DNA of 64,000 nucleotides from contig CP036296.1 in the NCBI GenBank assembly GCA_007751255.1, positions 496,001-560,000 on the forward strand, in the 5' to 3' direction. The notes under the pieces were generated by a model. The model saw only the letters and a program-made list of their open reading frames with translations. It was not told where the DNA came from and did no database searches. The translations under genes and the position numbers were made by a program. The stretch is from Engelhardtia mirabilis. GTDB lineage: Bacteria; Planctomycetota; UBA1135; GCA-002686595. The first letter of the stretch is position 1, and every line of letters begins with the position of its first letter. This document shows positions 11,791-16,838 of the stretch, in pieces.

Positions 11791-12331
11791 GTCCCCAGTC
11801 TCCGCCGCTCGACGAAGGCTTGCACGGGTGTTCTCGGGCAGCGGCTGGTCTGCTCGAGGGATGGCCTGGGCTGCCGGCCATCTTCAAGCCCTGCTCGCCA
11901 GGATCCGGCCAAGCCCGCGCCCATCACCAGGATTCGCGCCCAGCACGCCCAAACGGCGGCCTGTGGCCGCCTCTCGCCCGCTGACCGTAGCTTGCGGTCC
12001 GAGCCGTCCTCAGGGCGGAGTGAAGCCCCGCCGAGGGGGCGCCCGGTCCACGAGGCACCGCCAGCGGACGCGTTGGACACACTGGCCGCGGATCCTTGCG
12101 ACCGTAGCAGGCTAGTGTCCTGGATCAGAAATTCGGCGTCACTGTCCGGAGGTCCGATCGATGCAGGCTAGGCGCGCCGACGACGCGTATCCGCTGTGAT
12201 ACTCGGAGGAGGCGCTGGCGACGCCAGCGGCGATCGGAGCCCGGGAAGTGACGCCGAATTTCTGATCCAGGACACCAGGCTGGGCCCGTGGACCGATGCT
12301 TACCTGGCGCCCTACAGCTTGCCCTCCAGTC
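11791..12331. other. intergenic region carrying a MITE-like element
   Basis: 541 bp between divergent genes (GFA protein and beta-helix protein). The first 325 bp show no supportable gene or clear signal. The 159-bp MITE-like copy A lies at 12116-12274. The remaining 57 bp lead into the beta-helix gene and show no strong ribosome binding site. Confidence 0.6.
12116..12274 (-). mobile_element. MITE-like element, copy A
   Basis: 159-bp sequence with terminal inverted repeats that begin TGTCCTGGATCAGAAATTCG. They match perfectly for 28 bp and with two mismatches out to 34 bp. It is the reverse complement of copy B (19931-20089), with five differences by eye. The centre is also imperfectly self-complementary, so the whole element can fold into a long hairpin. 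The flanks are TA on the left and CA on the right. No coding capacity, so any movement would depend on a transposase elsewhere. The strand is given relative to copy B. Confidence 0.85.
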
Positions 12332-13582
12332 ATGATCTACCCCCGTCGCCACCTCGCCCTCACACTCCCGAGCGCATCCATCGCGCTCCTTCTGTCGCTC
12401 TGGGCGTCGATCGCGACGGCTTCGATCGCGACGGCTCAGGCGACCTGGACCGTGGACGACGACGGACCCGCCGACTTCTCGAGCGTCGCCCAGGCGGTGT
12501 CTTCGGTCGCAGAGGGCGATGTCCTGTTGATCGCGCCGGGCGACTACGGATCGGTGGCCGTCGACAAGTCCCTGACTTTGTTGGGTGACCCGAAGATCGT
12601 CGAACATCCGCGCTTCGAGTACCTGCAGGTACTCGGTGCGGGTGAGATCCGGCTCGCCCAACTCGACGCGGTCAGCCTCTACCTGTCCGGGATCCCCGGG
12701 CGCAGCCAAGTGGAGAACTGCACGACATCCGCAGGGCTGGAGGCCAGGGACGTGGGCGAGTTGTTCGTGCGCGGCTGCGACTTCGACTCGAGCCTGACGT
12801 TCCAGCCCTATGCCGGCACTCCTGGTGCCTTCGTATGGAGCACGACCGGGGCTCCGGCGAGCCGCGCACAGTTCGTTGACTGCAACCTCTTGGGTGGCAG
12901 GGGCACGCCCTTCGACCTCACCTCGGGCAGTGGCGGTGCGGGTCTTTCGACCCAAGGCGCCGATGTCGTCGTGGCGCGCTGCAGGATCCGGGGTGGCGAC
13001 GGAACCAACGGTCCCTTCGGCCTCGGGGTCGGCGGGGCCGGCGTGCAGACCTTTGGTGGGTCGGTGGAGGTGCGCGGTGCCCCCTCCGACTGGATCGTGA
13101 GCGGGTCCAACGACTGGCTCCAGGCCCAGGGCCAGGGGAACGCAGTCGTTGCGGGTGGCAATGGAGTGGTGACGCTCGTCTCGAGCATCTCGACGGCTGG
13201 GCCTCTAGTGGGGGAGGTCGACGTCGTGGTGCCCCGTCCGACCCTCGCCTGGGGCGGTGTGGGTGGCCCCGGATCCGCGCGCTCGTTGGAACTTCAAGGA
13301 CGAGCGGGCAACACGGCCCTGTGGTTCGTCTCTGATCAAGCCGCCTACGACGAGAGCTTTGCCCCGCTCTTCGGGCTGGCGCTGATCCTCGACCCTGCCA
13401 GTTCCTTCGCCAGCGGCTTGGTCCAACTCGCCGGCCAAGGCCAATCCGTCGGGCCGGGCTTCCTGCTCCCCGCCACTTCGGCCCTCGCCGGCGTGGTGGT
13501 CTCGGCCCAAGCCGCGGTGGTCTCGACCCTGGACGGATCGGTGGCTTTCACCAACGGCGACGACCTGCTGTTGGGGTTCTGA
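12332..13582 (+). CDS. secreted right-handed beta-helix protein with a planctomycete-type C-terminal module
   Basis: Secreted or surface protein of 416 residues. The signal peptide (about 1-35, ending IATAQA) is encoded partly by a 15-bp direct repeat (ASIAT twice). The mature N-terminus TWTVDDDGPADFSSV..AVSSVAEGDVLLIAPGDYG is typical for pectin-lyase-like parallel beta-helix proteins, followed by short Gly/Asp/Val-rich rungs to about residue 330. The C-terminal 60 residues (FLLPATSALAG...QAAVV...NGDDLLLGF) form a module often found at the end of secreted proteins in this kind of genome; the decayed frame at 21436-21719 carries a related end. The function is unknown. ATG at 12332 was chosen because it starts the leader. 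Confidence 0.75.
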   Translation: MIYPRRHLALTLPSASIALLLSLWASIATASIATAQATWTVDDDGPADFSSVAQAVSSVAEGDVLLIAPGDYGSVAVDKSLTLLGDPKIVEHPRFEYLQVLGAGEIRLAQLDAVSLYLSGIPGRSQVENCTTSAGLEARDVGELFVRGCDFDSSLTFQPYAGTPGAFVWSTTGAPASRAQFVDCNLLGGRGTPFDLTSGSGGAGLSTQGADVVVARCRIRGGDGTNGPFGLGVGGAGVQTFGGSVEVRGAPSDWIVSGSNDWLQAQGQGNAVVAGGNGVVTLVSSISTAGPLVGEVDVVVPRPTLAWGGVGGPGSARSLELQGRAGNTALWFVSDQAAYDESFAPLFGLALILDPASSFASGLVQLAGQGQSVGPGFLLPATSALAGVVVSAQAAVVSTLDGSVAFTNGDDLLLGF

Positions 13583-13893: not shown

Positions 13894-14208
13894 ATGCGAA
13901 CCACAGCTCTGATCGTCGCCCTGGGCCTCGGCCTGGCGGCCTGCCGTACCGAGGCCCCGCCCAGTACCCCCTCGCTCGAGGTCGCCGCCGGCGAGGTCAC
14001 CGCCGGCCTGGTGCTCGACAAGGTCCCGTGAGGCGGTTGTGCTGCCACCGTGCGTGGCGCTCTGGAACCCCTCGCGGGAGTTGGTGACATCGACGTCCTC
14101 CCGGGCCGCAAGGAGTTCTGGGTGGCCTTCGACCCCGAGCAGGTCGACCTGGCCACGTTGCTCTCGTCCCTCGAAGCGGCGGGCGAGCCGGCCAAGCCCG
14201 CCCAGTAG
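13894..14208 (+). CDS. candidate selenocysteine-containing HMA-domain lipoprotein (in-frame TGA at codon 46)
   Basis: Predicted 104-residue exported lipoprotein: leader LIVALGLGLAAC with lipidated Cys17, a short linker, then a heavy-metal-associated (HMA/MerP-like) domain at about 36-100. The frame is broken by a single TGA (14029-14031), and everything around it stays in the same frame: TAGLVLDKVP, then TGA, then GGCAATVRGALEPLAGVGDIDVL and FWVAFDPEQVDLATLLSSLEAAG, ending in TAG. In HMA domains this position is the first Cys of the GMTCGGC-type metal site, so readthrough as selenocysteine gives U-G-G-C. A SECIS-like hairpin follows the TGA. Alternatives are a TGC-to-TGA nonsense mutation or a base-call error. 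A start at 13861 is also possible. Likely role: binding or delivery of a soft metal, or redox chemistry, in the periplasm (inference). Confidence 0.72.
14043..14059 (+). promoter_or_regulatory. SECIS-like hairpin downstream of the in-frame TGA
   Basis: Perfect 5-bp stem GCCAC (14044-14048) / GTGGC (14054-14058) closing a 5-nt loop CGTGC, extended by a U-G wobble pair (14043/14059). The stem begins 11-12 nt after the TGA, and the loop begins 17 nt after it. The loop has G-U at its second and third positions. This fits what is known of bacterial SECIS elements (about 11 nt from UGA to the upper stem in E. coli fdhF, G and U in the apical loop). Short hairpins are common in GC-rich DNA, so this is supporting evidence, not proof. 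Confidence 0.55.
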
Positions 14209-14264: not shown

Positions 14265-16616
14265 CTATTCCAGGGTCCGGCTGTCTCCGTCCGCGAGTTC
14301 GATCGTGCGAACCACCGCGGCCGGGTCCCGGGTCTGGCCGTCGCTCAGCTCGAAGCGCCACTCGGCCGGGCGGAGCGCGGCCAGCTCGAGGGTTTGTGAG
14401 GTCGTGCTGTAGTTCCAGCTTCCGCGCCAATCGGCTTCGCCCGGCGGCCGCCAGGACGCGTGGACGAACCATTCGCCGCTCCACTCCTTCGGGCGTGCAA
14501 GGCTCACGCGCGCGCCGCTGGCAAGGGTCACGAAGACTGGGGTGGCTTGCCCCGCGTGGCAACTCACCGTTGCGGTCCATGGGGGCAGGCTGCCGGACGC
14601 TCCGAACTCGCGGATCGTCAGCTCCACTTCTCCCGCCACCACGTCCAGCGCGTAGCGTCCAGGGGCCAGATGGGCCGGGCTCGCATCGCCTTCCTGGGCC
14701 AAGGCCCCCGGCGGCGTGGAGCGCCAATCCACCGACAGGCGGCGGCTGAACGGGGTGCCCTCCTCGGTGCGCACGTCGAGGTCGAGCGTCGCGGTGGCAG
14801 GAGCTGGGACCCAATCTTCGCTGTCGGCACCTTCTGGCTCGTCGAAGGCGAGGGACGGATCGAGTTCGAGCCTGACCGTGGCCACGCCCCGCGCTCCGGT
14901 TGCGGATTGAAGTGGCTCCGCGGCCCAAGGGACCTCCGCCGAGCCGGCCTTCACCGTGCCGTAGAACCCGGCGCGGGCAATCGTGCGGCCGGCCATGGGC
15001 GGGAGCATCGCGGGGTCGAGCGCGAAGCTCGCGCCGCCCGCGCCGCCGCCGACCCACTGGCCGTAGTCGACGACCTCACCGTCGAGGAAGGTCAGCTCGA
15101 CCCGGAAGGTCGCTGAAGCCGATTCGACGGGCTTTCCGTCGCGCCGGTCGAAGACCTCCAGCGCTACCCCGAGCCGTTCGGCAGCCGTCCACTCGACGAA
15201 GCGCCCGTCGGCCCGCACCCGCGCGGGGCCGACGATCGACCAGCCGGGATCGAGGGATCGCAGCTCCAGATCGCCATCGGACAGCCCGCTGAGCTGCAAC
15301 TCACCGCGAGCGTCGGTGACACCGATGCAGTCCTGGTACTCCGCGGACCCACCGCCGATCCTGGCCCGCAGGGCCCTCGCCACGACCCGACTCGGACTCA
15401 CGTGCCCGACGCCGGCGCCGACCGGATGGGCGAGCACTTGAAGTTGCGGGACCGCGAACCCGTCCTCGTCGACGACTCGACCGACCAAGCGGTCGCCACC
15501 GGAGAGGACGACGGTCAAGCCCGTCTCCGGCCAGGACTCGAGCACACCCTGAAGGCGACGGTTCAGGTAACCGTTCGCGATGACCCCGAGCTCGAGGTCC
15601 CGGTCCACGGCTGCGAGCTCGTAGTCCTTGCGCTCGAACCGAAAGACACCCGCCTCGGTGCTGGTCGTGCTCGCCACGAACGCGGGGCCGCCGTGACCCG
15701 ATGCGACCCCTGCTGCCGCCGGTGCGGGCACTAGCAAGACCGTTGCGCCGGCGACCCCGTTGCCGCCTTCATCGACGATCGCACCCGTGAGGCCTGCGTT
15801 AGCCACCTGTGCCACGGGCAGTGTTCGGGCCTCCACGACCACACGCGACGTCGCGGGGTCCACGGTGGTCAGGTCGACCGACTCGGCCGGAGCGGCGGGC
15901 TGACCGTCCAGGGCCAGGGCCGGCCCCGTCTTGTGGTCGTGCGCGGTCGTCTCCTGCGGTGGCAGGGCCAGCCACAGCGCGGTCAAGGCCAGAACGGCGG
16001 CGAGGAGCGTGGTCGTCAGCTTCATCACAGTCCAAGTTGCGAGGGAGTGGACGAGTGCCGTGCTCGCGCCGAGGCCGAGCCCAGCGCGCGGTCGGGCCAG
16101 GGGAACCAGCAGGGCACACCACGCCCGCCACTCGCGGTCGTGGCGGCTGACCAGCTCCGCACGCAGCAGCTCGAGGCCGCGCCGCACGCGCCAGCGGACC
16201 GTGTCCGCCGGCTTGCCTTCCCGTCGCGCGATCTCCTCCGGTTCGAGGCCCTCGAGGAAGCGCAGCAGGATCGTCCTGCGGAAGGGCTCCGGCAGGGCTC
16301 GCGTTGCCGCCACGACCTGCTCCGCGATCTCGGCCTGCTCCACCAACTCGGACGAGCCGGGTAGTGCCTCCTCGCGAGCGACGGCGCGCTCGCGCTCGGC
16401 GCGACGCGCCTCCCCGCGGAAGCGGCGCGCTGCCAAGTGCCGGGCAACCGCGCGCAGCCACGGCCGGCGCGGAATCCCGACGGGGCCGGGTCGCTGGAGA
16501 GCGGCGACGAGGGTCTCCTGGACCAGATCATCGGCCGCGTGGGCATCCCCCAGGAGCGCCTGGGCCAGGCCGGTGAGCCAGGTCAGGTCGGTGGCATCGA
16601 GGGGCTGGTTCTGCAT
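14265..16616 (-). CDS. ECF-type sigma factor fused through a membrane segment to an extracytoplasmic carboxypeptidase-regulatory-like region
   Basis: 783-residue fusion. Residues 1-165 are a sigma-70 family ECF factor: region 2 (LLGDAHAADDLVQETLVAAL) and region 4 (LPEPFRRTILLRFLEGLEPEEIARREGKPADTVRWRVRRGLELL). A membrane segment (about 200-222, MKLTTTLLAAVLALTALWLAL) is followed by about 560 residues with repeated beta-sandwich modules of the carboxypeptidase-regulatory-like type, such as LTGAIVDEGGNGVAGATVLL and LVGRVVDEDGFAVPQLQV. The promoter-binding part would be cytoplasmic and the modules outside, so the protein could sense envelope conditions directly, without a separate anti-sigma factor (inference). 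Start at 16616 (MQNQPLDATDLTW) was chosen because the upstream extension is Arg/Ser-rich and not family-like. A second fusion of this design lies at 58444-61587. Confidence 0.88.
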   Translation of the reverse strand: MQNQPLDATDLTWLTGLAQALLGDAHAADDLVQETLVAALQRPGPVGIPRRPWLRAVARHLAARRFRGEARRAERERAVAREEALPGSSELVEQAEIAEQVVAATRALPEPFRRTILLRFLEGLEPEEIARREGKPADTVRWRVRRGLELLRAELVSRHDREWRAWCALLVPLARPRAGLGLGASTALVHSLATWTVMKLTTTLLAAVLALTALWLALPPQETTAHDHKTGPALALDGQPAAPAESVDLTTVDPATSRVVVEARTLPVAQVANAGLTGAIVDEGGNGVAGATVLLVPAPAAAGVASGHGGPAFVASTTSTEAGVFRFERKDYELAAVDRDLELGVIANGYLNRRLQGVLESWPETGLTVVLSGGDRLVGRVVDEDGFAVPQLQVLAHPVGAGVGHVSPSRVVARALRARIGGGSAEYQDCIGVTDARGELQLSGLSDGDLELRSLDPGWSIVGPARVRADGRFVEWTAAERLGVALEVFDRRDGKPVESASATFRVELTFLDGEVVDYGQWVGGGAGGASFALDPAMLPPMAGRTIARAGFYGTVKAGSAEVPWAAEPLQSATGARGVATVRLELDPSLAFDEPEGADSEDWVPAPATATLDLDVRTEEGTPFSRRLSVDWRSTPPGALAQEGDASPAHLAPGRYALDVVAGEVELTIREFGASGSLPPWTATVSCHAGQATPVFVTLASGARVSLARPKEWSGEWFVHASWRPPGEADWRGSWNYSTTSQTLELAALRPAEWRFELSDGQTRDPAAVVRTIELADGDSRTLE

Positions 16617-16838
16617 GGTGTTCGCAACGGAGTTCCCGCGCTCCGGTGCCGCGCGAATGGAATGTGGGGAAACACGCCCAATGCGATGGCTACACCGTCG
16701 CGATCCGGCAGCGACGCGGTTCAACTGTGTCGCCCTCCGCTCTCGGGGCCGGCCAACGAATGTCCGACGCGACCCACGCGCCGCGCCCCTGGCACCGCCT
16801 CGCAGCGGCGGCCACCCCGGTTGGCGAAGCGCCCGGCG

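Follow-up and report, generated by a model that had tools for sequence, protein, structure and literature searches.

HMA-fold proteins with a two-ligand metal loop include MerP, a soluble periplasmic protein of the mer operon, and the cytosolic copper chaperones CopZ and Atx1. All have a CxxC pair in that loop, and the copper chaperones carry Tyr or Lys in loop 5.

HMA proteins containing selenocysteine (Sec, U) are already on record. Among the selenoproteins of the GOS survey, in its accessible part, are MerP and a cation ATPase with UxxC; the survey describes most selenoproteins of known function as oxidoreductases, many of them with a UxxC-type motif (PMC2398784). The accessible part of a 2026 review lists NF041115 (a UxxU metal-binding protein), a protein of the MerT type and the ATPase, and the term HMA is absent from its main text (PMC13188914).

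Here, we analyzed a window of 64,000 nt from the genome of Engelhardtia mirabilis, in which one gene is predicted to encode a lipoprotein with a U-x-x-C metal loop. Among the NCBIfam models, the top match of this protein is NF041115 (UxxU_metal_bind, metal-binding (seleno)protein), which by its name shares with it a Sec-bearing metal loop in an HMA-like domain. However, the score is 35.7 bits against a cut-off of 95, and the model describes a UxxU protein, whereas the window protein has one Sec, in a U-x-x-C pair, on a lipoprotein. The best E-value against this model over the 28 rows of our homologue alignment A1 was 5.5e-12, which we infer to be too weak for 95 bits. With NF045683 (MerT_CopZ_Se, a MerT/CopZ fusion-like selenoprotein) the likeness is a CopZ-like part within a selenoprotein, but the match reaches 17.5 bits against a cut-off of 375 and the 104 residues of the window protein include no MerT part. 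The GOS entry "Mercuric transport protein MerP" (PMC2398784, table 2, 2 sequences), seen in the accessible part of that paper and compared by name only, is alike in being a MerP-type selenoprotein. As for the Cys proteins, MerP (TIGR02052; 1osd, 1afi) resembles the window protein in fold, export and two-ligand loop, and CopZ/Atx1 resemble it in fold and loop; unlike the latter, the window protein is predicted to be lipid-anchored, with UxxC and with Glu or Gln at the loop-5 position.

An earlier note on this DNA had called the product a MerP-like form not known from the described families. That is too wide a claim, given the Sec-containing MerP and HMA proteins of the GOS survey, the 2026 review, NF041115 and NF045683; what stands is that the UxxC lipoprotein, which falls below every NCBIfam cut-off, is a new form within an already recorded kind. 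We found no report of a UxxC HMA lipoprotein in the literature covered, that is, openly available main texts, including the accessible parts of PMC9312934, PMC12013277, PMC4807772, PMC1088965 and PMC1914089.

The gene and its predicted product

The gene and its parts, in window coordinates, are these:

13894..14208, + strand: predicted selenoprotein gene for a 104-residue lipoprotein with an HMA domain (frame, Pfam, homologues)
13894..13944, + strand: lipoprotein signal MRTTALIVALGLGLAAC, read by eye
13942-13944, + strand: lipobox Cys17 at the end of LAAC (by eye; invariant in 28/28 rows of A1)
13996..14199, + strand: HMA-like domain, strand-helix-strand-strand-helix-strand, residues 35-102 of the model (Pfam, model, Foldseek)
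14029..14031, + strand: in-frame TGA read as Sec46, first residue of UGGC (frame, homologues, hairpin)
14038..14040, + strand: TGT for Cys49, which closes the U-x-x-C pair (invariant, 28/28 A1 rows)
14043..14059, + strand: SECIS-like hairpin with a 6-bp stem (one G-U) and the 5-nt loop CGTGC at 14049-14053 (covariation, folding)
14185..14187, + strand: Glu98 (Glu in 21/28, Gln in 7/28 A1 rows)

Translation agrees with the frame that the earlier note had described, running on from ATG 13894 to TAG 14208 with a single TGA, at residue 46 of 104. The lipoprotein leader that it had recognized by the LAAC stretch also held up: a Cys follows a hydrophobic leader, as judged by eye, and this Cys17 does not vary among the aligned homologues. 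The rest of an HMA domain indeed follows the TGA in the same frame, since PF00403 (HMA) matches with 31.5 bits (cut-off 24.8), placing the domain in the C-terminal half of the lipoprotein with the TGA on the first metal-binding Cys, followed by GGC. The profile is matched by the fold: an AlphaFold model (mean pLDDT 85.6, with blocks of 93-98 from residue 31 onward) shows the HMA fold, and its top Foldseek match is MerP (1osd_A, E 8.1e-7, TMt 0.90). Glu98 occupies a position that, in the HMA fold, is close to the metal loop. At E<=0.01 the genome contains two HMA domains, one in the Sec46 lipoprotein and one within an 853-residue frame. A gene finder taking the TGA as a stop would leave only the leader and one strand.

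Conservation of the UGA and the downstream hairpin

Searching 154 genomes of the window's order of planctomycete bacteria, we obtained matches at E<=0.01 in 55, with 76 homologous places. A single in-frame TGA occurs in 33 of these, two in 2 and none in 41, and many of the 41 belong to large frames as their HMA parts. Thirty places reach E<=1e-7, a line chosen after inspection of the list; 28 of them have exactly one in-frame TGA while the other two (G152, G130) lack it and have Cys instead, and the five places next below this line are HMA stretches of TGA-free frames of 816-902 aa. Each of the 33 one-TGA places was read, and in all 33 the TGA falls in the metal loop; the earlier note had placed the TGA of the window gene at the first metal-binding Cys, in UGGC. 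Alignment A1 comprises 28 rows, 26 with TGA and 2 with Cys; it omits six one-TGA places read later and the decayed tandem copy in L027. Only three of its columns are invariant, those of the lipobox Cys, of Sec/Cys and of the second Cys. The site in relatives is thus either TGA or a Cys codon, and the homologues remain intact past the TGA, the second of the two tandem copies in L027 excepted, two outcomes that the earlier note had named as checks on its reading.

Two Sec-HMA genes stand in tandem in L011, L022, L026 and L027. The copies of the first three fall in two different branches of the tree described below, and the second copy in L027 loses the frame downstream of the TGA.

A protein scan of a genome-contig collection found no relative. 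A DNA pattern scan of the same collection, with a strict pattern derived from these very sequences, returned 22 contigs, of which three (L047, L053, L063) are chance matches; the remaining 19, L045 and L058 among them read as true members, each equal in length a contig already found within the order, so that no member appeared outside it.

For the hairpin we used set A2, 27 TGA sequences from 23 genomes, in which the second copy of L027, left out of A1 and the tree, was retained. Numbered from the T of TGA, alignment columns 15-20 pair with columns 26-31: 93.2% of the 162 pair cells pair, compared with 17-51% in slid controls. Compensatory cells numbered 20 as against 4.9 in shuffles, none of the 500 shuffles being as high. 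Both sides change in five of the six pairs, a weaker signal (16/500 shuffles as high), and further pair types show no excess over shuffles (370/500 as high). All six pairs can form in 23 of the 27 sequences, the exceptions being L015, L033 and, in both L026 and L027, the second copy. The window's own sequence forms all six, one as G-U; the hairpin folded alone has -7.9 kcal/mol, and its loop starts 17 intervening bases past the TGA. The bacterial SECIS model, as quoted in the accessible part of the 2026 review, has a loop of 3-9 nt, a stem of 4-16 bp, a spacing of 16-37 nt, a G within the first two loop positions and an energy <= -7.5 (PMC13188914), and the window hairpin satisfies each of these constraints. 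Against the hairpin, minimum-energy folds of single sequences, which are GC-rich here, had at least four of the six stem pairs in only 9/27 (36 nt), 15/27 (50 nt) and 14/27 (60 nt), and it is covariation that carries the case for a hairpin directly downstream of the TGA. Arg in the stem is encoded by CGT in 18 of the 27 sequences, even though CGC outnumbers CGT in the long open frames of the window, non-coding ones included (1668 vs 533). The Cys homologues could form one and none of the six pairs, and fold otherwise at -14 to -16 kcal/mol.

The window's genome (6.95 Mb, 2 contigs) has the machinery for Sec insertion, another check named in the earlier note. There is a tRNA-Sec (70 bits, Rfam cut-off 47), on which ARAGORN agrees (tRNA-SeC tca), together with selA (461 bits), selB (313 bits, cut-off 242) and, directly downstream of selA, selD (318 bits), so that selA, selB, selC and selD are all accounted for. 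The selD gene (L043) has an in-frame TGA of its own at 1531-1533, in the stretch CAGUAAK, where SelD is known to carry Sec. As selB scores above its cut-off in 139 of the order's 154 genomes, finding it is not diagnostic; among the 23 genomes with hairpin-set sequences it exceeds the cut-off in 22, the exception (G085) being 66% complete.

Could the TGA be a true stop, in a pseudogene or through a base error? One in-frame stop in a small gene, and the decayed second copy in L027, would fit, but the TGA recurs in 27 aligned sequences from 23 genomes, the hairpin covaries and the Sec machinery is present, and we reject this explanation as very improbable. Scarcely credible, and likewise rejected, is a variant code in which the in-frame TGA is read as another residue: TGA ends the neighbouring frame at 12296-13582 as well as 14 of the 29 family frames as cut in our analysis, and Cys replaces it in two homologues. 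Since the machinery is present and the homologues do not decay, the Sec decoding proposed in the earlier note is supported, with machinery, conserved TGA and covarying SECIS-like hairpin all in agreement. We put at about 0.9 the probability that the gene encodes a selenoprotein, a Sec-decoded, exported HMA protein, as judged from sequence.

Cysteine forms, gene neighbourhoods and wider relatives

In a family-level group with fixed synteny (f8), the gene lies downstream of a large protein bearing MSSKHRHGLP or MTKHGHGLP close to its start, and adjoins an oppositely oriented protein of ~200 residues with an MELRD stretch; Pfam matched neither neighbour at the single f8 locus tested (L086). This syntenic place is occupied by Sec forms (L082, L083, L085, L086, L094) and by one Cys form (L089), and a second Cys form (L081) has its downstream neighbour in common with the f8 Sec forms. 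In a tree of 55 rows and 70 columns, 19 of whose 52 inner branches are open, the two Cys forms nest in a supported clade (95/94) that is otherwise Sec; hence, Sec was probably replaced by Cys within this clade. A third Cys row (L105), from another family of the phylum, is placed inside the window's branch, but weakly supported (86/68).

The window's own gene is flanked by a sigma-70-type factor and by a protein that Pfam does not match, with no copper gene, which is uninformative on function. In one frame (14265-16724, - strand) the sigma-70-type part is joined to a long C-terminal part, which has a weak, below-cut-off carboxypeptidase regulatory-like match. We rejected the neighbourhood as a general guide to function: no neighbour shared across the order was seen among 143 neighbours listed, with 30 neighbour proteins tested by Pfam. 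Copper genes did appear near one supported sub-branch, whose members L019, L026b and L030 are held by loci L077, L084 and L088. L077 has a Cu-oxidase upstream, an outer-membrane efflux protein and, further out, a P-type ATPase with a CPC motif; in L084 a P-type ATPase with HMA and CPC motif stands beside the Sec-HMA gene; and in L088 a Cu-oxidase lies upstream of it. This makes three of the five loci with this kind of copy, the other two (L092, L093; assigned by eye) being without copper genes. In a motif scan of the 143 nearest genes, L084 and L095 gave P-type ATPases, and copper-oxidase-like motifs came up in L077, L083 and L088. Of these, the one in L083 was dismissed as chance, the motif lacking Cys and the protein clustering with a VIT/VWA-like neighbour of L085, and L095, beside an ATPase with HMA, was excluded from the copper count, as it holds a Cys HMA (GMTCGSC).

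A search with A1 of 392 genomes of the phylum, some from the window's order, gave matches at E<=1e-6 in 110. Besides the window's there were 23 TGA places, 20 of which were read (7 from the window's order; G066, G334:C1241 and G198 were left out). U stands at the metal loop in 16 of the 20, as UxxC in 4, UxxxC in 9, UxxU in 1 and UxxxU in 2, and the other four (L140, L142, L144, L146) have a Cys HMA preceded by an ordinary stop. Of ten wider-family variants tested, none passed the NF041115 cut-off (best 66.8 vs 95).

Sec-HMA proteins with UxxxC, a spacing of three rather than two, were seen in L133, L134, L101, L139, L149, L150, L151, L143, L145 and L148. In L137 (611-1591, - strand) a UxxxU HMA protein runs on in frame to a thioredoxin match, which has WCGPC. 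A UxxU HMA loop is present in lipoproteins of L097 (334-789 and beyond, - strand), L098 (5098-5505 and beyond, + strand) and L135 (983-1435 and beyond, + strand); each continues in frame into a thioredoxin-like part, recognized by eye, with a third TGA (GUVAC, DUAPC and GUGAC, respectively). The DNA past that TGA has a common stretch, GGATACCGTGACGTATCC, that could form a hairpin, and we regard these three as candidate triple selenoproteins.

A putative selenolate metal site

In the mechanism we propose, SelB, charged tRNA-Sec and the hairpin just past the UGA would insert Sec at residue 46, and the protein would be exported and lipid-anchored at Cys17, with Sec-Gly-Gly-Cys as its HMA metal loop. 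Within the cell envelope, the selenolate/thiolate pair would then most probably bind a soft metal, be it Cu(I) or Hg(II)/Cd(II), and Sec in place of Cys would make metal capture tighter or faster. By this reasoning from sequence, a membrane-anchored soft-metal chaperone or scavenger is the most probable function, somewhat more likely than not. Copper is our favoured guess among the soft metals, since one sub-branch of the family adjoins genes for multicopper oxidases and P1B-type ATPases.

Two other functions have to be weighed against a metal chaperone. The U-x-x-C pair might be a thiol/selenol redox centre of the envelope rather than a metal site, in keeping with the oxidoreductase character of most selenoproteins of known function, many of UxxC type, in the accessible part of the GOS survey (PMC2398784). 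The UxxU relatives L097, L098 and L135, continuing in frame to a thioredoxin-like part with its own U-x-x-C, point the same way, as do the thioredoxin match of L137 and the Glu/Gln where metal chaperones have Tyr or Lys in loop 5. However, the fold in the model and by Foldseek is HMA, not thioredoxin, copper genes adjoin one sub-branch, and L097, L098 and L135, the fused relatives included in the tree, fall outside the window's 30-row branch, which leaves a redox centre the less likely reading but a serious rival. That the protein is the MerP of a mercury-resistance system is more doubtful still. MerP is the top fold match and TIGR02052 gives 29.3 bits, but its cut-off is 92.55, on which grounds membership was rejected. 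The genome has no MerA above cut-off (best 357 vs 454 bits), no MerT was found in it by a search run without a positive control, and the three genes on each side have no mer look (two of the six by Pfam, the others by their listed starts only).

Returning to the soft-metal reading, we tentatively suggest that planctomycetes may have an envelope system of selenolate HMA proteins, with UxxC, UxxxC, UxxU and UxxxU loops and some members fused to Sec-thioredoxins, in which Sec would serve as a soft-metal ligand and not as a catalytic residue, the window protein representing a lipid-anchored, copper-handling branch. With Sec and Cys versions occurring naturally at a single syntenic place, it can be tested directly whether Sec acts as a metal ligand. 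Redox enzymes make up the majority of selenoproteins of known function, while Sec would here sit in the metal loop of a conserved, lipid-anchored HMA protein.
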